Shown here: piece by piece, positions 17,964 to 35,092 of the stretch | Position numbering within the stretch: the stretch's first letter is position 1 | Layout of the letters: each line of letters begins with the position of its first letter | Assembly (NCBI RefSeq): GCF_021729015.1 | Contig: NZ_JAJQQZ010000005.1 | Coordinates: 62,001 to 126,000 of the forward strand | Length of the DNA stretch: 64,000 nt | Source of the DNA: Halobacterium rubrum | Lineage (GTDB): Archaea; Halobacteriota; Halobacteria; Halobacteriales; Halobacteriaceae | Direction of reading: 5' to 3' | Translations under genes and position numbers: made by a program | Notes under the pieces: model-generated | What the model was told of the DNA's origin: nothing | The model's database searches: none | Seen by the model: the letters and a program-made list of their open reading frames with translations, nothing else

Positions 17964-18030
17964 TGGTGTTCAGCGCCAATCTCGTAGCTGTCCCGCGATT
18001 CTCTCTTGCTTTCCCTAACCGCGTCGTGGC

Positions 18031-18330: not shown

Positions 18331-18530
18331 CACCTTTAAGTGACGGACCGCGTGAATGGAAAAACAACGGAGCCAGATACCGACCACCCGTCACAGAACG
18401 GCTGACTACCGTTCACCACGACCACCATGACCCGCTGTAAGCCCGAAACCACGACCACCGAAGGGGGGTCGCCGTTGACTACGGCAGACCACCCCGCGCA
18501 CAGTACGCCAACCACGGGGGCGCCCCTCCC

Positions 18531-20078: not shown

Positions 20079-20148
20079 CAGTTCTGTTTCCGGGTCGTGT
20101 TTTTGCTCCGGGTGGTCTACGCTCGTGAGCCAACACTGGCCTCTACTA

Positions 20149-20192
20149 CCGGCGTATTGGTATGCAAAATACTTAATACGGTGGGGTCCCTT
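20149..20192 (+). promoter_or_regulatory. promoter cassette 17
   Basis: CCGGCG 20149, TATGCAAAATA, CTTAATA and GGTCCCTT 20185. Start box CACGATGGCACACC with the ATG at 20205. Confidence 0.85.
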
Positions 20193-20204
20193 GCATCATT
20201 CACG

Positions 20205-21077
20205 ATGGCACACCCGGACGCCGAGACCCACCCATTCGCCGGCCCCACGGTCCACGATGCCGACGAGCTCGCCACCGAACTCGCGGACAACACCTTCCGC
20301 GGGTCGTGCATCCAGCAACCGGCGGACGCACGCAAAATCCGCGTGCTGGACCTCTGTTCCGGCCCAGGCGGCGTCGGCGTCGCCCTCCGAACAATCTTCC
20401 ACCAGCCCAACGTCGACGGTTGGTTCCTGGGCGTCGACGTCGACGACTACACCGACACCTATCCTGGGGAGTTCCGCCAGATGGACTTCCGGAACCTAAC
20501 GCTGGACGCTCTTGGACTCGAGGAGCGCGTCGACCTCGTCTGGGTGAGCTTCCCGTGTCTGGCGTACACGCGGCTCTCGCACATCCACCACGACGACCCG
20601 ACCGAAGCCCACCAGACCATCCCCGAGTACAACGTTCGCGAGGTCTGCGAACGTCTTGGCCACGAGTACGTCATCGAGAACGTCGAGACCTGCCACGACC
20701 TCATCGAGGAGCGCACGGTCAAGGTCAACGGCCAGCCGTTCGGTCGTCCCCTGAACTACCCTCGGAAGTTCGAGACCAGCTTCCACGACCAGTTCGAGGA
20801 CGACCACTTCACCGGGCCGACGAAGAACGCGGAGACGGTCGCCGTCGCGACCGCGACGAGCGAGGAGCTCGCCGAAGCGAAGCAGATTCCAGAAGCCGCA
20901 GCGTGGACCGAGCAGGAAGCGAAGTCCGCGATTCCACCACAGTACGTGGCGTTCATCCTCTCGCACTGTCCAGCGCTCCCCGAGGTCCGCCCGCCAGGCG
21001 GCACGGGCGAGTGGTACAAGACGAGCCGCGAAGACGGCCAGGAGTCCATCTGGTCGTACACGGAGGCAACTCCTTGA
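20205..21077 (+). CDS. short cytosine-5 DNA methyltransferase-like protein, 290 aa
   Basis: Cassette ATG, MAHPDAETHPF. Class I methyltransferase with motif I RVLDLCSGPGG (46-56), acidic motif II GVDVDD, the PC motif IV VSFPCLAYTRLS with C118, and ENV motif VI (YVIENVETC, about 160). It lacks an obvious target-recognition domain and a GN motif IX/X, so it is shorter than standard C5 enzymes and resembles compact phage cytosine methyltransferases. No endonuclease partner is present, which suggests an orphan modification enzyme. A TTGA overlap couples it to a small ORF. Confidence 0.75.
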   Translation: MAHPDAETHPFAGPTVHDADELATELADNTFRGSCIQQPADARKIRVLDLCSGPGGVGVALRTIFHQPNVDGWFLGVDVDDYTDTYPGEFRQMDFRNLTLDALGLEERVDLVWVSFPCLAYTRLSHIHHDDPTEAHQTIPEYNVREVCERLGHEYVIENVETCHDLIEERTVKVNGQPFGRPLNYPRKFETSFHDQFEDDHFTGPTKNAETVAVATATSEELAEAKQIPEAAAWTEQEAKSAIPPQYVAFILSHCPALPEVRPPGGTGEWYKTSREDGQESIWSYTEATP

Positions 21078-21295
21078 CCGAGACGCGGTCGGTCACGCTT
21101 CGGTGTCCAGAGGGTCACTTCGAGATCGACGTGACTGTGACGGCGGCCGTCACCGACCCGGAGGTGAGCGGGCCGCTTCGAGGCGACCGGTCGCGACCGC
21201 GTGCGCCGGTGGCCTCTCCCGAAGAGTTCGTCGACCTTGCGCCAGGTGACGAATGTCTTGTCTGTGACCAGACGATTGAGAGCGCGGTTCGCTAG
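21074..21295 (+). CDS. small cysteine-containing protein, 73 aa
   Basis: The TTG at 21074 overlaps the methyltransferase stop by four bases, matching the coupling style of the element. The frame has good codon bias to TAG 21293-21295. The protein starts with strands (RSVTLRCPEGHFEIDVTVTAAV) and ends with FVDLAPGDECLVCDQTIESAVR. Cys and His in CPEGH and CLVC could form one zinc site. Function unknown. Confidence 0.55.
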   Translation: MTETRSVTLRCPEGHFEIDVTVTAAVTDPEVSGPLRGDRSRPRAPVASPEEFVDLAPGDECLVCDQTIESAVR

Positions 21296-21831
21296 TTCTG
21301 TCCGGCGGGCTGGTGTGGAGTCGAGGCTGTCCACCTAGGGGAAGCTAGGCGCTGTCCGGTTTGTGAGAGCGAGGTCCGCCGATGACCAGCCGGCGGCGTT
21401 GAGGTGAGCATTGAAGCCCGATACGTGGCTTCGACCCGGACGGTTCAGGCCGCGAATCGTGCGAATACCGACGACCACCGTCGGTGTACGACCTGTAGCC
21501 GCCGTAGGACCATGCCGGTCACGGCGACAGCACACCGACACCCCACGATTCTGGTTCCTCATCGTAAAACCCCACGCTGTACGGCACTGCGCCCATAGTG
21601 GGAACACCGCAAACGAGCTCGACGACCAGACGACGAGGAGTAGGTGTGAGGGAGAAGTTTCAACTAGTCACCCCCCGCAACCGCGAACAACGGGACGACG
21701 ACCGAGACCTCGTCCCTTCGACGAATCCGTCGCTGACCACGACGGAAGCCGACCATCCAGTAACCCGATACCACCCGCTATCACGGCCAGCTCCCCGCCG
21801 AGTGTGGAGACGCCGAGCGGGCAGACCACTC
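21296..21831. other. intergenic stretch, 536 bases, no firm gene
   Basis: No cassette. The frame of the next gene is open from GTG 21598, but that extension is arginine- and proline-rich with poor codon bias, so I do not include it. A conserved intergenic element sits at 21589-21630. A possible TATA-like TTTCAACTA is at 21658. Confidence 0.45.
21589..21630 (+). repeat. conserved intergenic element, copy d
   Basis: GCGCCCATAGTGGG at 21589-21602 with GAGCTCGACG downstream at 21615. The order of the two parts is reversed compared with copies a to c. Confidence 0.35.
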
Positions 21832-23058
21832 ATGACCCAACACGACCGTTCGAGCACTCCCCAGGCATCAACAGACGAGGAACCACGCGAGCAGGCCACC
21901 AGGTTCCCGGTAACCGGCGCGATCCCGCGAATCGAACGCCAGCAGTCGCACTACGAATTTCTGTGGGCTGTCCGGCCGCCAGCAGCCATGACGAACCTCG
22001 TTCACGCCCGCCGGATGCTGATGCACGACGAATCCGCCCAGGACTTCTTCCCCCCCGAGACCACAGTCCTGGTCACGTCGACCATCCCCGACGAGGACCT
22101 CCGCGAGTTTTCCTTCGAGGAGGAGCTTCGGCTCGTCCGCCAGTTCGACCCGGACCACTACCTCCCGTTCGACTTCCCCGTCTACGGCGACATGGACGCC
22201 GATACCCGGGCTGAACATGTCCGGCAGGTGGCCGCCGGCACACTGGACATGGACCACGTCCTCAGTCGGCTTTCAGCAGCGGAGGCAAGCCGGGTCGCGA
22301 ACGACTTGTCGCTCCCGCGTGAGCTCGTCATCGGCGAGTCGGATACTGGAGTGCTGCCTCTCATCAAGGGGACCTCGCGCGGCGAACGGGCAGTCATGGA
22401 GCGAACCGCCCGCGACGTCGACGCGCCGCTGATGGCGAAGTACGCTACCCAGTACATGACGGTGCCCGGGAGCGGGAACTACCCCGCGCTTCGCGACGAT
22501 CTCGAGGCGATCTACGAGGAGACCGCCGGCTACCCGATGCTGGTTGTCGGCCTGCTATCGCCGTCCGGCCGCTACTCGTTAGAAGGCCTCCCTAACAACG
22601 TGGTCGCGGCGGCTGGGGGGAGCCAGTGGCGGGAGCGCGTAAGCCCAGGGTCGAGCACGCCGGAAGAGATGCGAGAAGCGTACCACGAGCTCGCCACGGA
22701 GGTAGCGGAGGCACTCAAAGTTCCCCTCCGGTATGACCTGGACGCAGCGGCGAACTCCCGAGACACACCACCTGGCCCGCTGGATACGAGCCCTGGAAAC
22801 GCGGCGACTCTCGGCGAGGGACCAGCCGTCGCAGGATGCGCTGGTGATACAGCGTACGCCTGGGGTGGCCGGAAGCGACCAGACGATGCCATCAGCCCCA
22901 TCGAGGCACGAAACCGTCGAGGAGGCGGCGAGTCTAGCGATGCCGCCCCGAAGACAGAGAATGCCGGCGTGACGGCAGAGGAGGTCGCCCGAACCCGTCG
23001 ACGCGAAGCCACAGCAGAGGGGGGAGAACCGACCGGAGATGGAGACGGAGGAGTGTAG
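21832..23058 (+). CDS. hypothetical protein, possible TIM-barrel-like domain, 408 aa
   Basis: ATG 21832 (MTQHDRSSTPQ) is preferred over the longer GTG start. Residues 30-270 look like an alternating alpha/beta domain (ETTVLVTSTIPDEDL, YLPFDFPVYGDMD, VLPLIKGTSRGERAVMERTA, PMLVVGLLSPSGRYSLEGLP, NNVVAAAGGSQWRERV). The rhythm is reminiscent of TGT-type barrels, but no diagnostic residue set is visible, so this is a guess. Residues 290-408 are low-complexity acidic sequence. The next gene starts directly after its stop; the pair lacks a cassette and is probably one unit. Confidence 0.65.
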   Translation: MTQHDRSSTPQASTDEEPREQATRFPVTGAIPRIERQQSHYEFLWAVRPPAAMTNLVHARRMLMHDESAQDFFPPETTVLVTSTIPDEDLREFSFEEELRLVRQFDPDHYLPFDFPVYGDMDADTRAEHVRQVAAGTLDMDHVLSRLSAAEASRVANDLSLPRELVIGESDTGVLPLIKGTSRGERAVMERTARDVDAPLMAKYATQYMTVPGSGNYPALRDDLEAIYEETAGYPMLVVGLLSPSGRYSLEGLPNNVVAAAGGSQWRERVSPGSSTPEEMREAYHELATEVAEALKVPLRYDLDAAANSRDTPPGPLDTSPGNAATLGEGPAVAGCAGDTAYAWGGRKRPDDAISPIEARNRRGGGESSDAAPKTENAGVTAEEVARTRRREATAEGGEPTGDGDGGV

Positions 23059-24399
23059 ATGGGCGGTGGCAACCGGAAGCCGAGCTCGCAGGAAACGAGT
23101 GAGGCGGACGCCGAGGACTTCTCCAGCCGGTTCACGGACGCTACGGAGGAGACCCAGCAGAACGTCGAAGACTACGACGACGTCGACGAAGATGAAGACG
23201 GCCCGCTCCAGGAGTTCGAGGAGGACAGCGAGGACGGTGGGATTCCTGACTTCGAGGAGTTCCGCAAGGGCGAAGCAAGCCTCCCCAGTGACGACGAGGG
23301 CGAGGACGACGAGGAGGCGGTAGAGTCGACGGATGACGCCGGGGCAGCATCGGCTGGGGCAGCAGCGGGTGGTGGCGCCTCACTGGACGCACCCACACCT
23401 CCATCCGACCCCGAGCAAGAGGCGGAGAGCGGCTCGTCGGGACGGGGGGTTGACCAGTACGACGTCGACGTGCCTGACGAGGTGGTTGACGCCAACGGCG
23501 CCGGCGACTTCGCGACGACGATGTTCTCGAGTGGAGCTGTAGCGGACCGCCACCTCAAAGACCAGGCCGACGGAGAAGTTCGAGCGACCGACCCGGAGGA
23601 TGATGCTGATGGTCGACTCGGGGGTTGGTCGGAGTTTGACGAGGACAACGTCACCCGGTGGCTATCCCTGAAGGCGGCCGGAGGAGAGGCCGGTGTGACG
23701 AAGGACTACATGGAGGTTGCAGAACTGAGGGGGGAGGACGCGGACTCCTATCGGGCGTACCTTACGAACTACGACCACGGCGACAAGCATTCGAGGGCGC
23801 CGGAAATGTGGCAGGCCCACTCTCAGATGGCCGCGTACGCGTTCACGGACTCCCTCGGCGTCCGCGTTCCTGACCATACGTATGACCAGGAAGAGGGATA
23901 CGTCGCTGTTGCAGGTGTCGAGACTCCGAGCAGGGCGTCGACGGAGCCAGCAAAACGTGTACCCCGGGAAGCGGCGGAACAAGTCGACAGTCAGGAGTTC
24001 GTCGACATCATGGCGACTCAGGTCCTGGCTGGTAACGCGGACCTCCACGGGGAGAACGTTCGAATTGGTGAGGATGGCCAGGTCCACTGCATCGACTACG
24101 ACCGAGCCAAACGAGAGTACGGGAGCCTGAAAGATCTGGAGCGGAACTGCCGGAAAGCAAGTCGGACAGCGGAGACGATTGACCGGCGCCGGGACAGCTC
24201 CTTTGATGTGTCGAATGAGGACGTGGTGAGGCGAGCTCAGGAAATTGCCGTGGGACTCGAGGAGTCGGGTGAGACGGAGAGAGTCGTTGAATCGGTAGCC
24301 CAGTACGACCAGGTGTTCAGTGACGAAACGGGTCGGAGGATGGCGGAGCGGATTCGGGTGAACATCGAAGTAGCCGCTGCTTCCGCACGGAAGGAATGA
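23059..24399 (+). CDS. acidic kinase-like protein, 446 aa
   Basis: Residues 1-150 are extremely acidic and low complexity (runs of D, E, S, A). Residues 160-446 form the folded part. The phrase VLAGNADLHGENVRIGEDGQVHCIDYD (322-348 region) has the layout of a HipA or PI-kinase-like catalytic loop (N-x-D-x-H-x-x-N) followed by an I-D metal-binding motif. A lysine-bearing nucleotide loop is not obvious to me, so activity is uncertain. It directly follows the 408-aa protein. It could be a protein or small-molecule kinase acting on that partner. Confidence 0.55.
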   Translation: MGGGNRKPSSQETSEADAEDFSSRFTDATEETQQNVEDYDDVDEDEDGPLQEFEEDSEDGGIPDFEEFRKGEASLPSDDEGEDDEEAVESTDDAGAASAGAAAGGGASLDAPTPPSDPEQEAESGSSGRGVDQYDVDVPDEVVDANGAGDFATTMFSSGAVADRHLKDQADGEVRATDPEDDADGRLGGWSEFDEDNVTRWLSLKAAGGEAGVTKDYMEVAELRGEDADSYRAYLTNYDHGDKHSRAPEMWQAHSQMAAYAFTDSLGVRVPDHTYDQEEGYVAVAGVETPSRASTEPAKRVPREAAEQVDSQEFVDIMATQVLAGNADLHGENVRIGEDGQVHCIDYDRAKREYGSLKDLERNCRKASRTAETIDRRRDSSFDVSNEDVVRRAQEIAVGLEESGETERVVESVAQYDQVFSDETGRRMAERIRVNIEVAAASARKE

Positions 24400-24475
24400 A
24401 CTCGGAAACCTACGACCCCCTGGGACGGCTTAAGTGGGAAGCGGGCGTACATCTGACTACGGAGGCACGTCTACT

Positions 24476-24808
24476 ATGAGCCCGACTCAGACTACGGACG
24501 GCGGCGAGGTGGACCCGAGTGAGGCGATTGGAGTGTACTACCTCGCAGGGGAGGAGTTGACAAAGGACCCGGCGGACCGGACCTACGTGCAGGACGCGCT
24601 CTGGACTCCGGAGGGCTGGGTAGAGACGAGCAACGGTGAGACGGTTGAGGACGCACCGGAGGAGCAGACGCTCGAGGCCTTCGAAGAGTTCTGGGGCGAC
24701 TCCCGCCACTTCTTCGTGTACCGCCCGGACGAGGTTCCGGGCGAGATCGAGGAGTCAGAGCCGGTCGTGTCCGCGGGCGACATCGGCCTGGAAGACGAGA
24801 TCCGCTGA
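24476..24808 (+). CDS. acidic hypothetical protein, 110 aa
   Basis: ATG 24476 has a clear ribosome-binding site (GGAGG at 24461, ten bases upstream) and a TATA-like GGCTTAAGT at 24427, so unlike most genes here it has a leadered transcript. The protein is acidic, with a small alpha/beta core (AIGVYYLAGEEL, TLEAFEEFWGDSRHFFVYRPDE). No motif, no family. Confidence 0.65.
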   Translation: MSPTQTTDGGEVDPSEAIGVYYLAGEELTKDPADRTYVQDALWTPEGWVETSNGETVEDAPEEQTLEAFEEFWGDSRHFFVYRPDEVPGEIEESEPVVSAGDIGLEDEIR

Positions 24809-24976
24809 ATCGGTGGGAGTCGGGCAGTAAACTTATTGTCGTGTATTCGGTACTCTCAGATGGGTTTGGGAGTCATCTCCCCCGCTTTCGGGGTGGTGAC
24901 CTCCTTTGACGTAATTGCGTAGCCGTGCGTCTGTTCTCGGGTTGGTTAGACGGCCACGAGACTAACGACAACCATA

Positions 24977-25018
24977 CCGGCAGTCTTGTATGCAATAGGT
25001 TAAGTGAGTGTGGTCCTT
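24977..25018 (+). promoter_or_regulatory. promoter cassette 18
   Basis: CCGGCA 24977, TATGCAATAG, GTTAAGT and GGTCCTTA 25012, with 23 bases between the first and third boxes. ATG at 25027 without the GGCAC box. Confidence 0.75.
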
Positions 25019-25026
25019 AGGGGTAA

Positions 25027-25161
25027 ATGGAGTCAGAGATGACTCCCAAACCCACGAGGAACCAACTCAAGTACGCCCGATTGGTGTTGGAGGTCGTCTC
25101 CCTCACAATCGGCATCGTACTTGGGACGGTAAAACTCGCACGAGCGGTCGGCCTCATCTGA
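25027..25161 (+). CDS. single-helix membrane peptide, 44 aa
   Basis: ATG 25027 to TGA 25159-25161. A basic, polar N-terminus (MESEMTPKPTRNQLKYAR) is followed by one hydrophobic helix, residues 19-35 (LVLEVVSLTIGIVLGTV), and a short basic end. It has a proper cassette in front, so it is likely expressed. A GC hairpin (25173-25188) follows within 12 bases. Role unknown; membrane peptides of this size include toxin-like and regulatory ones. Confidence 0.6.
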   Translation: MESEMTPKPTRNQLKYARLVLEVVSLTIGIVLGTVKLARAVGLI

Positions 25162-25172
25162 GGCCGGAATCT

Positions 25173-25188
25173 CCCCGATTTATCGGGG
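25173..25188. terminator. short GC hairpin after the 44-aa gene
   Basis: CCCCGATTTATCGGGG can fold as a 5-7 bp stem. There is no clear T run after it, so terminator function is a guess. Confidence 0.25.
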
Positions 25189-25258
25189 CTACGAGACTGT
25201 GGGTGGATACTTGCAGCCGGCATTTATCTGCCGGGCTGCCGTAGAGCGAGGTAACACC

Positions 25259-25483
25259 ATGTCAGAGGCACGGTCCACCGACACCGTCGACGACGCAGGC
25301 CAGAGAGGCCGACAGAGTCACGGCGTCGTCTCGCTCGCGGTCTTGTTCGCCGCAGTGTTCGCGATCCCCGCTCTCGAGGCGGCGGGCTACGAACGCGCGT
25401 CGGCAGGTGTTGCGGCTGCAGTCGTCCTGGTCGGCGCGGTTTTCCTCACTCGGCGAGTTTGCGAGTTCGTAGCAACGTCGTAG
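25259..25483 (+). CDS. two-helix membrane protein, 74 aa
   Basis: ATG 25259, with GCGAGGTAA as a possible ribosome-binding site nine bases upstream. Polar residues 1-21, then hydrophobic helices at 23-40 (VVSLAVLFAAVFAIPALEA) and 47-64 (SAGVAAAVVLVGAVFLTR). It follows the single-helix peptide by about 100 bases. No family recognised. Confidence 0.65.
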   Translation: MSEARSTDTVDDAGQRGRQSHGVVSLAVLFAAVFAIPALEAAGYERASAGVAAAVVLVGAVFLTRRVCEFVATS

Positions 25484-25505
25484 CAATCCAACCGCCCATA
25501 TACTA

Positions 25506-25548
25506 CCGGCGCGGCTGTATGCAAAAACTTAAGTTAGCACGGTCCTTT
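25506..25548 (+). promoter_or_regulatory. promoter cassette 19
   Basis: CCGGCG 25506, TATGCAAAAA, CTTAAGT and GGTCCTTT 25541. ATG at 25558 in ATATGGCACGTTCC. Confidence 0.85.
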
Positions 25549-25557
25549 CTAACGAAT

Positions 25558-25863
25558 ATGGCACGTTCCCCTACCGAAGGAGCCGCAGAACCCACAGAGA
25601 GCATCCTCGAAACCCTCCACATCCCAGACGTCTGGTCACGCAACCGCGAGGAAGAAGCTCGAGCAGAGATGCTCGCGATCTACGAGCACGACGAGAAACC
25701 GATTGATGTCGCGGTATCCGAGGAAGTCCAGCTTCCAGGCACGGCGTGGACGGTCGGCCTGGATTCAGAACCAGGGGCAGACGTCGAGGAGCGGTTTGCT
25801 GAGTGCGATGGCCGGAGAGAAGCCCTCCAGCGGGCGGAAGACTGGTTGAACGCCTACGAGTAA
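25558..25863 (+). CDS. hypothetical protein, 101 aa
   Basis: Cassette ATG, MARSPTEGAAEPTES. Residues 18-101: a helix (REEEARAEMLAIYEHD), then strands (PIDVAVSEEVQLP, TAWTVGLDSEPG) and a C-terminal helix (ALQRAEDWLNAYE). The beta-then-helix end is like other small proteins in this window (63111, 46206). Single-gene unit. Function unknown. Confidence 0.7.
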   Translation: MARSPTEGAAEPTESILETLHIPDVWSRNREEEARAEMLAIYEHDEKPIDVAVSEEVQLPGTAWTVGLDSEPGADVEERFAECDGRREALQRAEDWLNAYE

Positions 25864-25946
25864 GGCGTTCCGAGTGCGTTTTCTCGGTGTTCTGATTCAA
25901 TGCTTAGTGACAAATAATTACTTTGCGAGTATTGAGACTATATAAA

Positions 25947-25989
25947 CGGCGGATTTATGTGCAAAAGAATTAAGTCGCTGACGTACCTC
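25947..25989 (+). promoter_or_regulatory. promoter cassette 20, divergent (TFB gene)
   Basis: CGGCGG, TGTGCAAAAGA and ATTAAGT are kept, but the fourth box is CGTACCTC instead of GGTCCCTT. An AT-rich stretch with TATATAA (25939) lies upstream. The downstream spacer differs too (CACCACCACCTGAAC). ATG at 26004. Confidence 0.7.
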
Positions 25990-26003
25990 ACCACCACCTG
26001 AAC

Positions 26004-27554
26004 ATGGCACGTTCCGAGACCCAGTCCCAGTCTGTTAACCTACAGGCCCGGGATGGAAACGACGGCAGTTCCGGTCGTCTCGTCGACGCCCAGACGGACC
26101 AGAACGGCGAAGAAACCACGTCTACCGGCGAGAAAACGCGCTCAGAGTGCGACGAGTGCGGTGGCGCCCTCGTAACCTACACAGACGAGGTCCGCTGCGG
26201 CGACTGTGGCCTCGTTCACGAAGAGCAGCGAGTCGACCACGGAGCAGAGTGGCGAGGCTGCATCGCCCGTTCCGAGGGTGAAACGGGGCAGAACCTCGTT
26301 CGGTGCAACGGCGGTTCCCGGAACCCGACTGTCCACGACCACGGACTCGGCTCCGAGATCGGCTACGACGGAGGGGGCAACGCGCAGCTCTCCCGGATGC
26401 GGAAAATGAACCAGCGCCACAAGTTCGAGAGCAAGGCCGAACGCAACCTGGGCTTCGCCTTCGGAGAGGTGAAACGCGTGACGTCCGCGCTGGACCTCGG
26501 CTACCAGGTCCAGGAACGCGCCTGCTCGATCCTCCGGAACGCACAGGAAGAGGGTGCGTTCAAAGGCGACACCATCGAGGAGCTCGTCGGCGGGAGCGTC
26601 TACGCTGCCTGTCGCGAACTCTCGCTCGCGCGCCTGCCTGAGGAAATTGCAGAGGTGCTCCGGTACACGGCCGCCGACACGCAGGGCGACTTCGGCGTGT
26701 CGAAGGCTATCCAGAACGCCTACGGGAAGCTCTGTCGGACGCTCGGCCTGGGTATTGCACCGCTGAAGCCAGCCGACCACATCCCCCGCGCAGCCCAGGA
26801 ACTCGAGTTGGACAAAGAGACGCGGGCGTACGCGCTCACCCTCGCTCGCCACATCGAGGACGCAGAGGGGTTCGTCGGCACTGGCCGTTCTCCGAGTGGG
26901 ATGGCCGCCGGCTGCATCTACTACGCGACGCAGCAGGTCGGCTCGTTCATCTCGCAGACGGAGGTCAGCGAGGCTGCCAACGTCTCCGCGAAGACCTCCC
27001 GAGACACCTACAAGGACCTCGACGAGCTCGATTCGCTCCCGCCCGCTCCCCAGCCTGACGAGGAAGAGTCCACGACCGAGTCGGCCAGCCCGGAGCCGGC
27101 GTCGACGAGCTCGTCGGTCGAGGCCGACCAGGTCGAAGCCGAGTCTGTCGAGCCAGCGCCAGCCGCAACCGAGACGGCGGGCGCGGGTGCCACAGACCTT
27201 CAGGTCGAGGACGGCCAGGCGGCGTCCGTCCCCTCGGAGGCCACGACCTCCGCAAGCAACTCTGTGGTGGCACAGGCCGACGAGTCGACAGCCACAGCCT
27301 CCCCACACGGGGGCGATCAGGAGATGGGGTACATCCAGGAGGAGCTTCCTGGACCTCGGGACGACGTCGACGTCGAAGCAGACCCGCCCATGAAGGAGGA
27401 ACCACGGGAGGGTTCGCCCCCGTCTGCCGACGAGGTCAGCCATCGCGGTGCGAGCACAGAACAGACCTATCTCTGGGAGTACGACACGAGACGGTCGGTG
27501 TCGCCGGAGTCTGATTCCAGTCCAGACGCAACGGTGGCTGGTGCGGATACCTAG
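26004..27554 (+). CDS. tfb: transcription initiation factor B (TFIIB family) with long tail, 516 aa
   Basis: Cassette ATG, MARSETQSQS. Zinc ribbon CDEC...CGDC at residues 49-68, B-finger region with AEWR (81-84), then two cyclin-like repeats, about 145-235 (NLGFAFGEVKRVTSALDL onward) and 245-340 (AAQELELDKETRAYALTLARHIEDA, GMAAGCIYYATQQVGSFISQTEVSEAANVS). A typical archaeal TFB is about 300-330 aa; here an acidic, low-complexity tail of some 165 residues (350-516) follows. It recruits RNA polymerase at BRE/TATA promoters. Its own promoter is a variant cassette, which fits a specialised factor for the element's genes, though this is inference. Confidence 0.9.
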   Translation: MARSETQSQSVNLQARDGNDGSSGRLVDAQTDQNGEETTSTGEKTRSECDECGGALVTYTDEVRCGDCGLVHEEQRVDHGAEWRGCIARSEGETGQNLVRCNGGSRNPTVHDHGLGSEIGYDGGGNAQLSRMRKMNQRHKFESKAERNLGFAFGEVKRVTSALDLGYQVQERACSILRNAQEEGAFKGDTIEELVGGSVYAACRELSLARLPEEIAEVLRYTAADTQGDFGVSKAIQNAYGKLCRTLGLGIAPLKPADHIPRAAQELELDKETRAYALTLARHIEDAEGFVGTGRSPSGMAAGCIYYATQQVGSFISQTEVSEAANVSAKTSRDTYKDLDELDSLPPAPQPDEEESTTESASPEPASTSSSVEADQVEAESVEPAPAATETAGAGATDLQVEDGQAASVPSEATTSASNSVVAQADESTATASPHGGDQEMGYIQEELPGPRDDVDVEADPPMKEEPREGSPPSADEVSHRGASTEQTYLWEYDTRRSVSPESDSSPDATVAGADT

Positions 27555-27652
27555 CCGCGGTAGGGCGTCGGGACAAGCGGCATCTGGGCCCGAGAGGTTG
27601 GCATCGGTGTTGAGAGCCCCTACTGAGGAGCCCGAACCGCAACACAACATAC

Positions 27653-27695
27653 CCGGCGTATTTGTATGCAAAGGCTTAAGTCAGTGGGGCCCTTT
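27653..27695 (+). promoter_or_regulatory. promoter cassette 21
   Basis: CCGGCG 27653, TATGCAAAGG, CTTAAGT and GGCCCTTT 27688. ATG at 27705 (ATATGGCACGTTCC). Confidence 0.85.
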
Positions 27696-27704
27696 CCTTC
27701 GCAT

Positions 27705-28118
27705 ATGGCACGTTCCGAGACAGATTCCACAACCGAGGCGTCGAACGACCACAACCACCGTCCGGGGACATTCGCCCGCCTGGCCCCAGAGTCGGAGATA
27801 GTCTGCATCGTCGATACCCCAGATGCCACTGCCGGCGACTACGAGATCGACGAGCTCGCCGGACGGACGGTCGCGGAGGCGAACGCAGACAACCCCCAGG
27901 TCTCCCCGGAGGACGACGTGGTCGAGGTCGTGTTCCCGAGCTCGGTCAACTACTATGCGGAGTCACTGAACCGGCTGGACGGGTGGACGCCCAGTTCGCT
28001 CGCCGGGATGCAGGTGGCCGGGTCTCTGGAGGAGACGCCGGTGACGGTGTACGCCTACCCGGCGTCGCTGATCGAGCCGACCCCCGCGAACGTGGGCGGC
28101 CAGGAGACTTCCCGGTGA
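27705..28118 (+). CDS. hypothetical protein, 137 aa
   Basis: Cassette ATG, MARSETDSTTEAS. The first 28 residues are polar. Residues 32-120 look like an alpha/beta domain with strands (SEIVCIVDTPDA, VVEVVFPSSVNYYA, TPVTVYAYPASLIEP) and a helix (GRTVAEANADN). The first gene of a unit that continues with a 28-codon ORF and a 123-aa protein. No family recognised. Confidence 0.65.
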   Translation: MARSETDSTTEASNDHNHRPGTFARLAPESEIVCIVDTPDATAGDYEIDELAGRTVAEANADNPQVSPEDDVVEVVFPSSVNYYAESLNRLDGWTPSSLAGMQVAGSLEETPVTVYAYPASLIEPTPANVGGQETSR

Positions 28119-28125
28119 GCGCGTA

Positions 28126-28212
28126 ATGAACGGGAGTCGACTGCAGTCCATAGCGGCGGCTCTGCCGGGAGTCCAGGACGGCGAGCGCAGCGGTCGCAGG
28201 GGTGGGAGGTGA
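28126..28212 (+). CDS. possible 28-aa ORF in operon
   Basis: ATG 28126 eight bases after the previous stop; the frame ends at TGA 28210-28212. The end contains the GGGAGGTGA that serves as ribosome-binding site for the next gene. Basic, glycine- and arginine-rich. It may be real, or only a spacer with an open frame. Confidence 0.25.
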   Translation: MNGSRLQSIAAALPGVQDGERSGRRGGR

Positions 28213-28219
28213 CCGCCAG

Positions 28220-28591
28220 ATGCCGCCCTCTGACGACGAGGACTCCGAGCGCCCTCCCGAGAGTGGCCGGCTGGACCCCGAGGAGCTCGTCACGTACACG
28301 GGTGGAGACTACGTGCGGGTCAGCACGGAGGACACCGATGCAGAGGTCTCCCGAGCGGAGCACGACGTCGGCGACGGCGATCTCTACTGTGTCACGCAGG
28401 TCGCGTATCGGAGCGAGATTCCGGACCTCGTCGTGAAGCCGGTGTCAGCGGTGGGCGAGTGGCCGGAGGAGGATGTGCCGTCGTTCGTGATCCTGGCGAC
28501 GGAGTACGGTGTGGCGCTCGCGAAGGAGGGGGATGCGGTGCTCGAGTTCGTCCAGCCCGTCGACGAGCTCACCCTGGTCGAGACCGAGTAG
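28220..28591 (+). CDS. hypothetical protein, 123 aa
   Basis: ATG 28220 with a strong ribosome-binding site (GGGAGGTGA, 28204-28212). Acidic N-terminus of 25 residues, then an all-beta-looking domain (ELVTYTGGDYVRVSTED, DLYCVTQVAYRSEIPDLVVKPV, SFVILATEYGVALAKEGDAVLEFVQP). The internal ribosome-binding site marks it as an operon gene. Function unknown. Confidence 0.65.
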   Translation: MPPSDDEDSERPPESGRLDPEELVTYTGGDYVRVSTEDTDAEVSRAEHDVGDGDLYCVTQVAYRSEIPDLVVKPVSAVGEWPEEDVPSFVILATEYGVALAKEGDAVLEFVQPVDELTLVETE

Positions 28592-28610
28592 CCACACCAC
28601 TGCTATCATC

Positions 28611-28654
28611 CCGGCGTTACTGTATGCAAAAAGGTTAAGTGTGGGCGGTCCCTT
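28611..28654 (+). promoter_or_regulatory. promoter cassette 22
   Basis: CCGGCG 28611, TATGCAAAAAG, GTTAAGT and GGTCCCTT 28647. Spacer ACCACAAAACAGACG as in cassette 5. ATG 28670 opens a leader ORF. Confidence 0.9.
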
Positions 28655-28669
28655 ACCACAAAACAGACG

Positions 28670-28744
28670 ATGGCACCCAAGACCCCCACCGAGACGCGAC
28701 CCATTCCCGCATACGACCAGACTGCCCGGACGCGGCACCACTAA
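28670..28744 (+). CDS. cassette leader ORF, 24 aa
   Basis: The cassette start box ATGGCACCC opens 24 codons (MAPKTPTETRPIPAYDQ...), ending at TAA 28742-28744, seven bases before the ATG of the main gene. Proline- and threonine-rich, like the fused N-termini elsewhere. Confidence 0.45.
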   Translation: MAPKTPTETRPIPAYDQTARTRHH

Positions 28745-28751
28745 CAGCGCC

Positions 28752-30278
28752 ATGTCGCTCTCAGCATTCCTCGGAGACGACGGCGCCGCCAACACAACGG
28801 CTCCGGACGCACAGCCGACCGCCGCGCAGGCCACGAGCCCGACGGCTGGGTCGGCTGTCGGCGAGCTCGCCCCGGGCGACGTGGTATTCTTCAGCCACCA
28901 GCATGTCCACGCGCTGCTCCGCGAGGCAGGCGACTACTCCGACGACGCGGCCGACGCCCCTCTCCGACCGGTTCGCATGGACATCGAGTGGCTGGACGGT
29001 TACTCGGTCGGCGGCCGGACCCGTAACGTCCGCCGCGAGGACCTCGAGGCGCTCGCGGCTGACGGCAAGGTCCGCCTCATCGCCGAAGGGGTCGCCAACC
29101 GACACTCCCGCTGGGCGGCGACGGGAGCCCGCCACCCCGACCAACACGCGCAGGACCAGCCAGTCGAGCCGAAGCCCCGGGTACGAGCAGACAAGACGAC
29201 CTTCACCCGGGAGTTTTCCCGTGACCGCGTGAACGGGTTTCTCCGGCATCCTGTCGTCGACCACAAACACGGCCGAGTGGCGAAGGCCAAGGCGATGTTC
29301 ACGGCACGACGGCCGGACGACGAACTCTCCGCGGTCGCGACCGTGAACGTCCCAAACGCTCGGCAGGCCTGCGACCGCCACACCGTCGAGATCACGCGGT
29401 ACGCGAGCCATCCTGAGGACGCCGTCGACCGAGATGCCCTCCCGAACAACACCGGGACGCGGATGCTCGCCCGAATCTATGAGTGGGCCGCCCTGGAAGG
29501 GTTCGAGAACGTCCGTGCCCTGGCTGGCACCGACGGCAATGACGGCGGCATCTATCAGGGCGCGAACTTCCAGAACGACGGCACAGCGTGCTCGACAGGG
29601 TCGCACAACCGAAATGGCCGGTCGAACCACGACCACACTCGCGAGCTCACGAGGTACCTCCGGTCGGTCGACGTCGACGGGGAGGACGGTTCCCCGGGCG
29701 TTCCCCGCCGGGTCGAGGGACGGCTTGGCAACGGGCCCGGCGGCACGGTGACGGCCCAGGCGGGCCTGGCGTCGTTCTCCGGGTACGACGGGGACGCACG
29801 GCCGGCCGAGTTCGGTTTCGTCCGCGAGGATGTCACGGACACCAAGTTCGCACGGGACGACGCTCACGCGCCGTACAGCGGGCGAGCACGCGACCTCTTC
29901 GCGGCCGAGGGGCGAGACGGTGCCCGGGAGGCGCTGGCCGGCGAGGCGACCGGGCGCGGTCGGTACGCGCCGGCAGCCGTGTTCGGGGCCGACGTGGACG
30001 GGACGCTGGTGGCGGCGCTGGCGGTCACGGGCAACCCGCGGTCGCCGTACAGCGAGGCCCGGGTGCTCGAGTACGCGAGTCGAGAGACGGCGTTCCCCGG
30101 CGCGACAGCCCGGTGGTTGCTGACGCGAGCACGCGACTGGGCGGAGTTGGAGGGGTACGACGTGATGGCGGTCCCGGAGGGTGTGTTCTCCGCGACGGAC
30201 GGTGTCCAGTCGTCTCTCCCCGCTGGTCTGGGGTTCGAGGCGGTCGAGGGTGGAGGCTACCGGATGCTGTTCGGCTAA
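28752..30278 (+). CDS. tandem GNAT / Mom-like acetyltransferase, 508 aa
   Basis: ATG 28752 after the leader. Residues 40-120 are a small beta domain (LAPGDVVFFSHQHVHALLRE). Residues 155-300 are GNAT-like: strands (DDELSAVATVNVPN, HTVEITRYASHP), a helix after NNTGTRMLARIYEWAALEG, and the loop GGIYQGANFQNDG at about 264-276, as in the phage Mu Mom family. A second GNAT-like unit lies at 375-508 (FGADVDGTLVAALAVTGNP, LLTRARDWAELEGYDVMAVP, GLGFEAVEGGGYRMLFG). Mom modifies adenine in DNA; the substrate here is not proven. Neighbouring methyltransferases favour a DNA-modification role. Confidence 0.65.
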   Translation: MSLSAFLGDDGAANTTAPDAQPTAAQATSPTAGSAVGELAPGDVVFFSHQHVHALLREAGDYSDDAADAPLRPVRMDIEWLDGYSVGGRTRNVRREDLEALAADGKVRLIAEGVANRHSRWAATGARHPDQHAQDQPVEPKPRVRADKTTFTREFSRDRVNGFLRHPVVDHKHGRVAKAKAMFTARRPDDELSAVATVNVPNARQACDRHTVEITRYASHPEDAVDRDALPNNTGTRMLARIYEWAALEGFENVRALAGTDGNDGGIYQGANFQNDGTACSTGSHNRNGRSNHDHTRELTRYLRSVDVDGEDGSPGVPRRVEGRLGNGPGGTVTAQAGLASFSGYDGDARPAEFGFVREDVTDTKFARDDAHAPYSGRARDLFAAEGRDGAREALAGEATGRGRYAPAAVFGADVDGTLVAALAVTGNPRSPYSEARVLEYASRETAFPGATARWLLTRARDWAELEGYDVMAVPEGVFSATDGVQSSLPAGLGFEAVEGGGYRMLFG

Positions 30279-30296
30279 CGGAACCCGCCCACACAC

Positions 30297-30339
30297 CCGG
30301 CGCGTTAGTATGCAAAAGCTTAAGTCGGGCCGGTCCCTT
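30297..30339 (+). promoter_or_regulatory. promoter cassette 23
   Basis: CCGGCG 30297, TATGCAAAAG, CTTAAGT and GGTCCCTT 30332, then ACGTTCGAGTGTACGATGG. ATG 30355 opens a leader ORF. Confidence 0.9.
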
Positions 30340-30354
30340 ACGTTCGAGTGTACG

Positions 30355-30408
30355 ATGGCTCAACTCCAAGACGACAACCGACCGCGCCTGCACGGAGGCC
30401 AGAAATGA
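30355..30408 (+). CDS. cassette leader ORF, 17 aa
   Basis: Seventeen codons (MAQLQDDNRPRLHGGQK) from the cassette ATG to TGA 30406-30408, which overlaps the ATG of the main gene as ATGA. The overlap is the same coupling used between adjacent genes of the element. Confidence 0.5.
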   Translation: MAQLQDDNRPRLHGGQK

Positions 30409-30773
30409 ACACGACCGCCGACCCCTCGGCCGACTTCGGGCTTCAGGGAGGTGCCTACATGACGCGACGAGAGCTCGTCGACACCGCCCCACGCCCCGAG
30501 GAGATGGTCGCGCAGATGGGGATTGAGGTCGGGGATGTCATCCAGGACACGGAGGATGGGGTCTGCCACGTCGTTACCGACTTCTCCAACTACGGCGAGC
30601 ATGGGTCTATCCTGTTGGACTCCCCGACGGCGTCGAACGTCGACGAGCTCGAGGAGGGCGGGATTTCAGCGACCCTCACTGACTACTACGCGAAGTGGCG
30701 GCGAGGCACCCTCATCCAGCGCGCTCACTGGGAAAACTGGCCGACCACGGTAACGGGCGCGGGCAGCCACTGA
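30405..30773 (+). CDS. hypothetical protein with YxxWRRG domain, 122 aa
   Basis: ATG 30405 overlaps the leader stop. Residues 35-110 match the small domain seen in the protein at 15278: VGDVIQDTEDG, a strand VCHVVTDFSNYGEHGSILLDSP, and LTDYYAKWRRGTLIQ. This is probably a beta-barrel-like fold present in paralogues. No enzymatic motif. Confidence 0.7.
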   Translation: MNTTADPSADFGLQGGAYMTRRELVDTAPRPEEMVAQMGIEVGDVIQDTEDGVCHVVTDFSNYGEHGSILLDSPTASNVDELEEGGISATLTDYYAKWRRGTLIQRAHWENWPTTVTGAGSH

Positions 30774-30875
30774 CTGCCAGAATCGTCGACGGTTTCACCG
30801 CAGCGGGGTGGCCGTGGCCGCGGTGTTCTCGTCCAGTTCCGCTTCTGGCGAACCGCCCACCCCACGGCAATATAC

Positions 30876-30919
30876 CCGGCGCGTTAGTATGCAAAAGCTT
30901 TAATTCGCCCCGGTCCCTT
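30876..30919 (+). promoter_or_regulatory. promoter cassette 24
   Basis: CCGGCG 30876, TATGCAAAAGC, TTTAATT and GGTCCCTT 30912. Nearly identical to cassette 23 through the spacer and start box. ATG at 30935. Confidence 0.9.
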
Positions 30920-30934
30920 ACGTTCGAGTGTACG

Positions 30935-31975
30935 ATGGCCCACTCCGACGACCACAGCCCGACCGCGCAGGACGCAGCCGCCGGCGACAGCGACCAGGAA
31001 GCGTTCGGCGGCATGAACCTCGCCGACGCCCGCGCCGACGACCGCGCCGAAAAGGAACGCGACTCCCGACCCACGCCAGTCCCGCTCGCCCGCGAGCTCA
31101 AGCGCGCCGTCGGCGGCACCTTCGACGTCGACCCGTGTTCCGGCTGCGAGCCGATGCCGATAGCCGAAACGCGGTACACGGCGGCAGACGACGGTCTCTC
31201 CGACCGTTCCCCCTGGTACGGGAGCGTGTTCGTGAACCCGCCGTACTCCAACATCGAACCGTGGGCAGCGAAGGCCGTCCGTTCGACCGAGCGGGGCGAC
31301 GCGGACCACGTCGTCATGCTCATCCCATCCTACTCGGCATCCTCTGGCTGGTTCCACGAGCACGCCAGCAGCGCCGAATACCTCTGTGTGATAGACGGCC
31401 GCCTGAAGTTCCACGGCGCGGACTCAAGCGCCCCGTTCGCGTCGCTACTCGTCGTGTTCGCGGCGGACTCCGCGGACGTGCCCGAGTCACTGCTGGCGAC
31501 GCTGGAGCAGCGCGGGGAAGTCTGGGGCGCTGAAGAGATTGAAGCCCACCACGAGCAGGCTGGCTTCGGCCAGTTCCTCGCGGAGGGGAAGGCCCAGGAC
31601 GTCGAAGCCGCTGAGGGCCAGCAGGCAACGCCGGACCATCCCCGTGACCCGCCGCTGGCAGGGCTGGCTGTTGGCGACCTCGTCAGCGTTCAGTACGACG
31701 ACCAGGCAATCGGGTTCCCCTCGGACTTGGAGGCAACCCCGACGCTCCGTGTGCTGACGGGCCAGGAGCGCAACGGTCGCGTGGAGGTTCTCTGCCTCGC
31801 GCCGGACGTGCCCTGGAACGAGGGCGAGCAGTACCACCTTCTGTCCTACGCGCAGGACGACCCGTTCGAGGTTCGGGCGGCCGTCGAGGACTCCGGCTGG
31901 CAACACCTGCCCCTGAAGAACGTGACTCCGGTCGCAGAGACGGGCGGGGTCGCCCCCGCTGACTCGCACGCCTAA
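30935..31975 (+). CDS. Dam-type DNA N6-adenine methyltransferase, 346 aa
   Basis: Cassette ATG, MAHSDDHSPTA. Residues 45-185 match the phage Dam family (PF05869 type): PTPVPLARELKRAVGGTFDVDPCSGCEP (47-73), WYGSVFVNPPYSNIEPWAAKA (94-114) with catalytic NPPY 101-104, then VVMLIPSYSASSGWFHE and FASLLVVFA. The C-terminal 130 residues (200-346) add an acidic linker and a small beta domain (GDLVSVQYDDQAIGF, VEVLCLAPDVPW). It methylates adenine in DNA. No paired nuclease is visible, so it is probably protective or regulatory. Confidence 0.85.
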   Translation: MAHSDDHSPTAQDAAAGDSDQEAFGGMNLADARADDRAEKERDSRPTPVPLARELKRAVGGTFDVDPCSGCEPMPIAETRYTAADDGLSDRSPWYGSVFVNPPYSNIEPWAAKAVRSTERGDADHVVMLIPSYSASSGWFHEHASSAEYLCVIDGRLKFHGADSSAPFASLLVVFAADSADVPESLLATLEQRGEVWGAEEIEAHHEQAGFGQFLAEGKAQDVEAAEGQQATPDHPRDPPLAGLAVGDLVSVQYDDQAIGFPSDLEATPTLRVLTGQERNGRVEVLCLAPDVPWNEGEQYHLLSYAQDDPFEVRAAVEDSGWQHLPLKNVTPVAETGGVAPADSHA

Positions 31976-31979
31976 CTAT

Positions 31980-32023
31980 CCGGCGTATTGGTATGCAAAA
32001 AGCTTAAGCTAGAGCGGTCCTTT
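31980..32023 (+). promoter_or_regulatory. promoter cassette 25
   Basis: CCGGCG 31980, TATGCAAAAAG, CTTAAGC and GGTCCTTT 32016. It starts five bases after the methyltransferase stop. ATG at 32043. Confidence 0.85.
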
Positions 32024-32042
32024 GTCTCGGGTAGACCCGACG

Positions 32043-32885
32043 ATGGCACGTACCACCGAGCTCGAGACCCGCGACGGCGACCGAATCACGACCGACACGC
32101 CCGCCGGCACCGAAATCGAGATAACCTACAACGGCTCGCGAGGCTCCCGCACCGTTACCGCATACGTCACCCAGGGGTTCGACCCGTACCCAAACACGGA
32201 CCAGCTATCCAGTCTCAGGGTGTACGCGGCCGAACCCGATGCCCGCCACGCCAGATTCCTGAACTTCAGCGTCAGTGAGAACGGCCCGCGCTGTCTCGAG
32301 GCCATCCAGAATCTCGGTCTCATCGAGGAGGTGGCCCTCACCGGAGAAGTGAACGAGACCTACGCAGCGTTCGGGGACTTCTACGCCTCGAGAGAGGGCG
32401 ACGTGGTCCGGCTGAATGGCGACACCTACACTGTCATCGACGCGAACCAGAAGCGGAACCGCACTCTGGCTGACGTTGACGGCAATCGGGAGAAGGTCTC
32501 CGCGAGACCCACGGGCCTCTCCTACACCTACACGAACGAGCGCGAGGACACGGCTATCGACGAGTACGAGCGTACGGGAGAACGGAACATCAACGCAGAC
32601 GCGGACATGGTGTTCGCAGCGATTGAGGGCTACGGGCACGACCACGACCAGGGGAAGGTCGAGGCAGTGGAGATCGACGGGGCCCGGTACGAAGTCGTGT
32701 TCCGCAACGATGCGGAGGAGAACGGGATTCGGCTTTCTGACGGAGATGTAGGGCGAGACCACCGCGACTACAACACCATCCTGAAGGCAGACCCTCTCGG
32801 TCTGCGGCTTACGACGGCGCTCTGGGGCGAGACTGAACGGCAACGAATCTCGGTGGAGGACGTGACGCTACTCAGGGGGCAGTAA
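32043..32885 (+). CDS. hypothetical protein, two beta domains, 280 aa
   Basis: Cassette ATG, MARTTELETRDGD. Residues 8-60 form a beta domain (DRITTDTPAGTEIEITYNGSRG, RTVTAYVTQGF) resembling those at 1523 and 8143. Residues 75-115 contain a helix and strands (CLEAIQNLGLIEEVALTGEV). Residues 190-280 are a second beta-rich part (VEAVEIDGARYEVVFRNDAEENG, LGLRLTTALWGE). Single-gene unit. No recognised family. Confidence 0.7.
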   Translation: MARTTELETRDGDRITTDTPAGTEIEITYNGSRGSRTVTAYVTQGFDPYPNTDQLSSLRVYAAEPDARHARFLNFSVSENGPRCLEAIQNLGLIEEVALTGEVNETYAAFGDFYASREGDVVRLNGDTYTVIDANQKRNRTLADVDGNREKVSARPTGLSYTYTNEREDTAIDEYERTGERNINADADMVFAAIEGYGHDHDQGKVEAVEIDGARYEVVFRNDAEENGIRLSDGDVGRDHRDYNTILKADPLGLRLTTALWGETERQRISVEDVTLLRGQ

Positions 32886-32899
32886 CCCCGAATAGTTTG

Positions 32900-32943
32900 C
32901 CGGCGTGTCTGTATGCAAAAGCCTTAAGTCAAACCGGTCCCTT
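32900..32943 (+). promoter_or_regulatory. promoter cassette 26
   Basis: CCGGCG 32900, TATGCAAAAGC, CTTAAGT, GGTCCCTT 32936 and TGTATCGAGTAGACGCAAA. A close copy of cassettes 1 and 7. ATG at 32962. Confidence 0.9.
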
Positions 32944-32961
32944 GTATCGAGTAGACGCAAA

Positions 32962-33150
32962 ATGGCACGTTCCGACGACCTCGAAAACCTCAACGATGAG
33001 GAACTGATCGAGAAGTACAACGACGTCATTGACGAAGGTGTCGCGCTCGGAAGCCGCCGCATGAGCATCGGCCCGGCAGTGATGAAGGCCGGCCCCATCA
33101 AGCGCGAGCTCCGCAGTCGAGACATCGACCCCCAGGAGGCGAAGCGATGA
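32962..33150 (+). CDS. small helical protein, 62 aa
   Basis: Cassette ATG, MARSDDLENLND. Helical throughout (DEELIEKYNDVIDEG, MKAGPIKRELRSRDIDPQEA). First gene of a four-gene chain ending with an amino-methyltransferase; its stop overlaps the next ATG. Could be a small adaptor. No family recognised. Confidence 0.65.
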   Translation: MARSDDLENLNDEELIEKYNDVIDEGVALGSRRMSIGPAVMKAGPIKRELRSRDIDPQEAKR

Positions 33151-33419
33151 CCGATTCCCGCACCCTCCGCCTGGTGAAGGTCACGGAGGTTGCAGAGGAC
33201 CCGGACCACCGGAACTGCGACCGCTGCAACTACGGGACGCCTGCGGACCGGCGGTTCCTGCTCGCCGTCGACGAACAGGATGCGGCCGACCAGTACGACC
33301 CGGACCAGGAACGCGAGGGGCAGACGGGCCTCTGCGGGAGCTGTGTCGTCGACCACATCCGAGAACACGAGATGGTCGTCACGGAGGCGACCGACGCCGT
33401 CGGCGAGGGGGTGGCCTGA
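33147..33419 (+). CDS. zinc-binding small protein, 90 aa
   Basis: ATG overlaps the previous stop (ATGA). Cysteine pairs CDRC (24-27) and CGSC (62-65) bracket an acidic region, giving a probable zinc site. It ends with a helix (VVDHIREHEMVVTEATDAVG). Similar short proteins with YGTPADRRFLLAVDEQDA-like sequence occur in haloarchaea. Role unknown. Confidence 0.65.
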   Translation: MTDSRTLRLVKVTEVAEDPDHRNCDRCNYGTPADRRFLLAVDEQDAADQYDPDQEREGQTGLCGSCVVDHIREHEMVVTEATDAVGEGVA

Positions 33420-33769
33420 TGGCCTACTCTCCCCCTTCGGCGGTAGACGTCGAGACGGCGCCGGAAAGTGTCGTAGCGGACCCGGAGGACCCGCCGGCCG
33501 AGACTGTGGTTCGAATCCTCGCGAGCATCGGGGAGTCTGAAAGCCCACAGGTCCTGGCTGTTGAGACAAGCCAGTCAGGGAAGACAGCGACCATCGGACG
33601 GAACTCGGGCCCACAGCACCGTCTCGATGCCTCTACGCTCTTCGCTGGTGAGCGAATCGAGCGTGGCGGCTACTGGTACGAACTATACACCCCAGAGCGG
33701 TTTACAGAGCTACTCGGGTCGGAGCGCAACGCGGGCGACCTCCCCGAGCCCACCCACCGGCCTGCCTGA
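33419..33769 (+). CDS. hypothetical protein, 116 aa
   Basis: TGATG overlap with the previous gene. Acidic first 30 residues, then a helix (AETVVRILASIGES) and a small beta domain (QVLAVETSQSGKTATIGRNSG, IERGGYWYELYTPERFTELLG). It precedes the methyltransferase by 12 bases. Function unknown. Confidence 0.65.
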   Translation: MAYSPPSAVDVETAPESVVADPEDPPAETVVRILASIGESESPQVLAVETSQSGKTATIGRNSGPQHRLDASTLFAGERIERGGYWYELYTPERFTELLGSERNAGDLPEPTHRPA

Positions 33770-33781
33770 ATACCTCCACCA

Positions 33782-34702: not shown

Positions 34703-34725
34703 CTGGGTCTGCCGGCAATATTCTA

Positions 34726-34769
34726 CCGGCGGACTTGTGTGCAAAAGCCTTAAGTCGAACCAGTCCCTT
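34726..34769 (+). promoter_or_regulatory. promoter cassette 27
   Basis: CCGGCG 34726, TGTGCAAAAGC, CTTAAGT and AGTCCCTT 34762, then ACCTCTGAGTGTACGATGGC. ATG 34785 opens a leader ORF. Confidence 0.85.
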
Positions 34770-34784
34770 ACCTCTGAGTGTACG

Positions 34785-34829
34785 ATGGCACCAGAACCCA
34801 GCCCCACGGCGGAGGTGGCGGCCGCATGA
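34785..34829 (+). CDS. cassette leader ORF, 14 aa
   Basis: Fourteen codons (MAPEPSPTAEVAAA) ending with TGA 34827-34829 that overlaps ATG 34826 of the main gene (ATGA). The shortest leader of the seven. Confidence 0.5.
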   Translation: MAPEPSPTAEVAAA

Positions 34830-35092
34830 GCGGCACCCAACAGGACCTCACGGAATCGGCCACAGACGCCCGGCATCGAGGCGACGTGACCGCACTGGAC
34901 GCCTGGTTCGCAGACGACCTCCCGAGTGTCGACCAGGCCCTCGCATTCGCCGAGTTCGTCGTCCTGGGGATGGACGCCCAACATTTCGCTGACTACGACA
35001 TCGGTTGCAGCTACCTTCAGGCGTTCGAGGAATACTACACCGCCGAACTGCCCCGCACAACCGGCCAGACGAACCTCGAGAGGTGGGTTTGA
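34826..35092 (+). CDS. small helical protein, 88 aa
   Basis: ATG 34826 overlaps the leader stop. Acidic and helical (TESATDARHRGDVTALDAWFADDLP, SVDQALAFAEFVVLGMDAQHFADYD, YLQAFEEYYTAELP). The next gene's ATG overlaps its stop (TGATG). First of three coupled genes. No family recognised. Confidence 0.65.
   Translation: MSGTQQDLTESATDARHRGDVTALDAWFADDLPSVDQALAFAEFVVLGMDAQHFADYDIGCSYLQAFEEYYTAELPRTTGQTNLERWV

Follow-up and report, generated by a model that had tools for sequence, protein, structure and literature searches.

A diverged plasmid-encoded TFB and a replicon-specific promoter cassette as a candidate dedicated initiation system in a haloarchaeon

The haloarchaeal plasmid analysed here encodes its own fast-evolving alternative TFB, which most likely (we put the probability at about 0.45) drives or strongly favours transcription from a replicon-wide set of gene-start cassettes in concert with host TBP and RNA polymerase. 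In the mechanism we propose the plasmid TFB would bind the cassettes, and a conserved downstream box (GGTCCCTT) would make a promoter depend on this TFB or on a partner. The promoter of the TFB gene itself, without a full GGTCCCTT, would be readable by host TFBs when the plasmid enters the cell and so would start the programme, while the disordered tail of the protein may recruit a partner. Among the observations behind this reading, a near-invariant BRE-like block runs through the replicon-specific promoters, and the downstream box has decayed in just one cassette, that of the TFB gene. The initial annotation had proposed a dedicated initiation factor, and a replicon TFB with diverged promoter-reading parts beside replicon-specific promoters agrees with it; CCGGCG and GGTCCCTT, conserved outside the promoter core, nevertheless call for something besides TFB.

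The plasmid and its promoter cassette

The window, by which we mean the whole 64,000-nt stretch that was analysed, comprises bases 62001–126000 of contig C5 (169,024 bases) in a haloarchaeal genome of 3.07 Mb. Because the two ends of C5 are identical over 5,274 bp at an offset of 161,750 (in a comparison that took the contig from base 2,001 on), the simplest reading is that C5 is apparently a circular replicon of 161,750 bp. It encodes an Orc1/Cdc6-type initiator (Table 1), with no cassette within 100 nt upstream, and at contig positions 43–55 kb a type IV secretion-type transfer cluster with a VirB4-like ATPase, and thus has the features of a haloarchaeal T4SS-type plasmid. Initiator, VirB4-like cluster and end overlap therefore identify C5 as a plasmid with a transfer system. 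Besides the plasmid copy, the host genome has five or more complete TFB genes and also fragments. Only one TBP gene was found in it, on contig C1 and not on C5, and a search for a second, plasmid-borne TBP found none. With a single TBP found, any basal-factor specificity would have to come from TFB.

Table 1. Positions of features in the window
Feature	Window position	Strand	Basis or detail
Cassette span	441..58660	+	33 strict, one weak (41708); one strict on - (53004)
tRNA-Arg(ACG); second tRNA	8615-8709; 9534-9666		ARAGORN; 133-nt Rfam match; both between cassettes
Genes with methyltransferase, Mom-like and PD-(D/E)XK matches	36256-37554, 28509-30275, 13568-14377, 38066-39505		Cassette region
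Orc1/Cdc6-type initiator	18531..20078	+	Pfam Cdc6_lid 1.8e-22
Regular cassette before TFB cassette	25499..25562	+	TGCAA at 25520
TFB cassette	25939..26006	+	AT box + ACGGCG, GTGCAAAAG 25959-25967, TTAAGT 25970-25975, CGTACCTC 25982-25989, ATG 26004
TFB (TFIIB-family) gene, 516 aa	26004..27554	+	ORF, Pfam, PHROG, phmmer
Zinc ribbon CxxC...CxxC, residues about 49-85	26148..26258	+	Pfam 49-84, alignment
B-reader/B-linker region, diverged	26259..26370	+	Alignment, 31-TFB comparison
10-residue insertion, first cyclin repeat, around TAADTQGDFGVSKAIQ	26671..26730	+	Alignments
BRE-recognition helix VSAKTSRDTYKDL (host TFBs mostly VSEVTIRNRY)	26973..27011	+	Alignments
C-terminal low-complexity tail, 171 aa, residues 346-516	27039..27551	+	Alignment, composition
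Regular cassette after TFB gene	27646..27706	+	TGCAA at 27667
TbsP-like transcription regulator	59900..60781	+	Pfam TbsP 1.2e-21; host-like TATA

The cassette reads CCGGCG-GTATGCAAAAG-TTAAGT-GGTCCCTT-ATG and is present in about 38 copies on the replicon. Its elements follow in the order AT box, CCGGCG, GTATGCAAAA, TTAAGT and GGTCCCTT, with the ATG 27–40 nt past TTAA and with an AT-rich box (consensus about CTATATACC) directly before CGGCG in every copy. Strict cassettes number 36 on C5 (35 on the plus strand) and have near-fixed spacing; scoring added a strong one at contig position 23185 and a weak one at window position 41708. Within the window TGCAAAAGNNTTAAGT is matched 28 times with up to three mismatches, against 0.58 expected. 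Every match in the host genome lies on C5, and a stricter form of the pattern is absent from the 390 other haloarchaeal genomes searched, so the earlier claim that the replicon has a promoter set of its own holds. Blastn found no match to the cassette among plasmids. A pattern match in one AT-rich contig (L024) among the viral and genome contigs was judged to be chance after reading through, and matches in three bacterial contigs were taken as chance given their organisms.

As the bases between the conserved boxes vary, the likeness of the cassettes points to constraint and not to recent duplication. The upstream unit stands 5 nt from TTAA in 30 copies and 4 nt in 6, and GGTCCCTT is fixed relative to TTAA; on these spacings we describe the cassette as two rigid modules joined by a 1-nt hinge. 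CCGGCG together with the hinge suggests that another DNA-binding protein is involved, and the TbsP-like regulator encoded on the plasmid is a candidate for this second cassette factor. We rejected a hairpin or dyad (TTTTG-TATG-CAAAA), as the T run is ∼60–70% conserved against ∼100% for the A run.

Host upstream regions have TATA near -28 and A+T at -11/-10, in a profile that was TATA-anchored (a fixed-width motif search gave mainly CG-rich words). Given this TATA position, transcripts from the cassettes would be expected to start ∼28 nt past TTAA and to have short leaders, and GGTCCCTT would span about -16 to -9 relative to that start, with its TT on the haloarchaeal -10 WW element. The cassette core, an A-rich BRE adjoining TTAAGT, is close to the published haloarchaeal consensus of CGAAA and TTWT, with TGCAAAA a variant of the A-rich BRE CGAAA (PMC4983044). 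GCAAAA itself is absent from all 37 host promoters whose TATA is clear, a rough set that was drawn from host genes called by a simple script.

Several features of the genes behind the cassettes are recorded here as side observations. Many begin MARS- or MA[PHL]-, their likeness reaching a few codons into the coding sequence (e.g. window 8932, 25520, 26004, 27667 and 32914). Genes in the cassette region include a DNA methyltransferase (phrog_116, 3.3e-67) and weak matches to Mom-like (1.6e-4) and PD-(D/E)XK (1.5e-4) families as well as to methyltransferase, and are a possible anti-restriction or establishment set. The sole minus-strand cassette gene (51646-52962) encodes a 438-aa product without a Pfam or PHROG match that is 37–44% identical to proteins encoded on Halobaculum halophilum and Salinigranum marinum plasmids; the Halobaculum halophilum record also carries terminase and head-tail genes. 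The length of the 133-nt tRNA match suggests that it holds an intron.

Divergence of the plasmid TFB

The assignment of the gene as an element-encoded TFB, and its extent, are confirmed by its TFIIB repeats, zinc ribbon and ORF on C5. Pfam PF00382 matches in two stretches, both above cut-off (4e-25, 88.1 bits), and together with the alignment to the archaeal TFB 1d3u_B (phmmer, 2e-24, residues 144–341) this gives the two cyclin repeats of the TFB/TFIIB family. The Pfam zinc-ribbon model scores 9.6e-7 and 28.7 bits, just below its cut-off of 29, and the four cysteines of the N-terminal ribbon (CDEC...CGDC) line up with those of other TFBs. The protein also matches PHROG 20431 at 2.4e-42, its frame is open over all 516 codons with coding base composition (GC3 0.82 in the core and 0.75 in the tail), and the zinc ligands and the R286-equivalent residue are retained.

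Beyond this framework the protein is highly diverged. Its best match anywhere is 44% identical, over the core; screening 242 genomes of the class turned up matches at E≤1e-54 in five other genomes, and no close relative was found in the collections searched, viral contigs included. Among 32 TFBs placed in a tree, its terminal branch is long (1.7 changes per column, where the median is 0.07) and joins another long branch without a supported grouping, either inside the haloarchaeal plasmid-TFB clade or elsewhere. VirB4 and TFB identities run opposite between plasmid pairs: C5 and Halorubrum trapanicum pCBA1232-02 are 45% identical in VirB4 and 37% in TFB, pCBA1232-02 and pNG600 39% and 71%. Taking the window TFB as the counterpart of the others, this suggests that the TFB, and not the plasmid as a whole, is accelerated.

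In the B-reader ETGQNLVRCNGGSRNPTVHDHGLGSEIG replaces ERTGAPLTAARHDRGLSTEIG, with a 5-residue insertion followed by a 7-residue gap. The R-x-G-A/P-P (GAP/GPP) motif of canonical archaeal TFBs, present in 30 of the 31 TFBs compared, is here RCNGGSRNP, and the one other TFB without it is that of a tailed virus (AGTAV); its loss could reduce initiation activity. In the BRE helix KTSR stands where four of the five tested host TFBs have VTIR. At the two positions scored, which we take to be the equivalents of human V283 and R286, the arginine is kept and the valine has become lysine, at a site that varies among plasmid TFBs (V, T, S, A, K). The second cyclin fold of archaeal TFBs touches the BRE, and their B-reader/linker goes into the polymerase (PMC7289017). 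On this alignment the plasmid TFB differs in its promoter-reading and start-site-reading parts, which fits a dedicated factor.

The tail beyond the second cyclin repeat had been singled out as unusual and acidic. Its length is indeed unusual (171–174 aa, vs 0–9 aa in 31 other TFBs), but its acidity is ordinary, as a D+E content of 22.8% is ∼1.1 SD above that of replicon proteins (18.4 ± 4.0%). The oddity is its low complexity, at the 0.9th percentile, which with a hydrophobic content at the 0.6th percentile suggests that the tail is disordered. It has no match in the plasmid collection when searched with the low-complexity filter on.

The TFB promoter and alternative readings

The TFB cassette is, as the initial annotation had it, divergent: with 37.4 bits it is the lowest of 36, the next scoring 52.4. 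Its upstream, BRE and TATA modules are normal and the whole deficit lies in the downstream box, where it scores -6.3 bits and the lowest other copy +5.8. This box had been called lost; it is degraded yet not wholly gone, as CGTACCTC keeps 5/8 positions of GGTCCCTT. The reported extra TATATAA (25939–25945) turns out to be the ordinary AT box carrying a CC-to-AA change, and such a box is present in every cassette. The idea of early expression by host factors therefore cannot rest on an additional TATATAA, and has only the degraded GGTCCCTT module as a basis. In the strongest form of the dedicated-factor reading, which we regard as possible but rather unlikely, the BRE helix and B-reader of the TFB would have co-evolved with an extended BRE (TGCAAAAG) and GGTCCCTT into a private transcription class, self-started from a host-readable promoter.

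With the core so near the haloarchaeal consensus, it is also conceivable that a host TFB may read the cassettes itself. The cassettes would then be strong ordinary promoters for host TBP/TFB, with another plasmid regulator binding CCGGCG and/or GGTCCCTT, the TFB being separate cargo whose promoter escapes the regulator by having no downstream box. We consider this a serious if tentative contender. The early genes of SIRV2 provide a precedent, as they share a strong BRE/TATA core set in sequence specific to the virus, are read without a virus TFB and are likely repressed by Aca8, a predicted wHTH protein; in other archaeal viruses this core is flanked by different sequences (PMC11065993). The likeness to C5 extends to one element-specific sequence before many small genes. 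In contrast to SIRV2, where the predicted repressor is Aca8, the C5 set includes a TFB gene and has its conserved boxes at other positions. A repressor would be expected to act between TATA and the start site, and GGTCCCTT lies there. At least one possible regulator, the TbsP-like protein, is encoded on the replicon, and the methyltransferase with the weak Mom-like and PD-(D/E)XK matches fits an establishment/anti-defence set. What host-TFB reading leaves unexplained is that the TFB alone has diverged, in its promoter-reading parts, and that a near-invariant TGCAAAA block is missing from the 37 host promoters; moreover, the boxes lack the inverted-repeat form that many repressor sites have. 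Sequence alone cannot choose between a dedicated TFB and host TFBs, because the cassette pattern to be expected is the same under both.

The lost GAP motif, the 5-residue insertion and the shortened linker would also suit a decoy or repressor-type TFB that binds TBP and promoter DNA, initiates poorly and damps host or plasmid transcription. This is improbable, as the zinc ribbon, which docks RNAP, and both cyclin repeats are kept, and a decoy has no need of a private promoter set. Least probable is a decaying or recently captured TFB whose tail and altered regions are drift, since the long branch and the failure to find a close relative in the collections searched are set against an open frame of coding composition, the retained zinc ligands and R286 equivalent, and a conserved promoter cassette directly upstream.

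Comparison with other elements and implications

Plasmid TFBs are common (254 plasmid records with a TFB), which, together with the lack of such cassettes in the six related plasmids described below, weighs against the dedicated-factor reading. Like C5, pNG600, pCBA1232-02, pHALXA02 and XH14 unnamed1 have a TFB-family gene on a 100–180 kb plasmid, and in the regions inspected pNG600, pCBA1232-02 and XH14 have VirB4-like matches as well. Each of their TFB genes is preceded by that plasmid's own gene-start element or by a close variant. These TFBs are tailless, retain the B-reader and share 50–91% mutual identity; the window TFB is 35–40% identical to them. Unlike the BRE/TATA/GGTCCCTT cassette of C5, the gene-start element of these four is a hairpin. 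No C5 cassette was found in the TFB surroundings of six TFB plasmids, those of Halobaculum XH14, Halorussus limi, pNG600, pHALXA02, Natronosalvus rutilus and pCBA1232-02 (L058 and L060–L064). Since these six carry the hairpin element instead, a TFB accompanied by gene-start cassettes across the whole element may be a more general arrangement, of which the C5 cassette is a type of its own.

The hairpin element consists of a recurring GTTTTTC/GTTTATT box, a stem of 5–8 bp and a loop containing GA.GGGGTG, in most cases 50–60 nt ahead of the ATG (e.g. L061:12099-12128 and L064:22701-22729), and four of the six plasmids have a clear copy in front of the TFB gene. Its 36 copies have 22 distinct stems, and swapped arms are 45% complementary, in a biased test on copies picked for complementarity. 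Rfam scans of two loci (L061, L064) gave no match, and the element occurs 0 times in C5 and once in 200 kb of host chromosome.

Haloarchaea have multiple TFB/TBP sets, and their alternative TFBs confer some promoter specificity (PMC7289017). The C5 host likewise has several TFBs; what differs is that this TFB is carried by a mobile replicon that has private promoters of its own, and that only one TBP was found. The Halorubrum tailed virus DL1 (OP630574) similarly places a TFB on a haloarchaeal mobile element, one that is 25% identical to the window TFB and has no tail. Phage-encoded sigma factors (e.g. SPO1 gp28) are initiation factors that an element expresses from a host-type promoter and that then read element-specific promoters. 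The logic would be the same here with an unrelated protein family, the role of the plasmid TFB being read from its sequence.

If true, the private transcription class would be an archaeal counterpart of these phage sigma-factor programmes. With ∼38 near-identical promoters, one diverged TFB and one TBP, the plasmid offers a natural and compact test of TFB-based specialisation, in which the TFB's own promoter is a built-in mutant. Such a class, if real, would also provide an orthogonal TFB/promoter pair for archaea, and would bear on the role of the many haloarchaeal TFBs.
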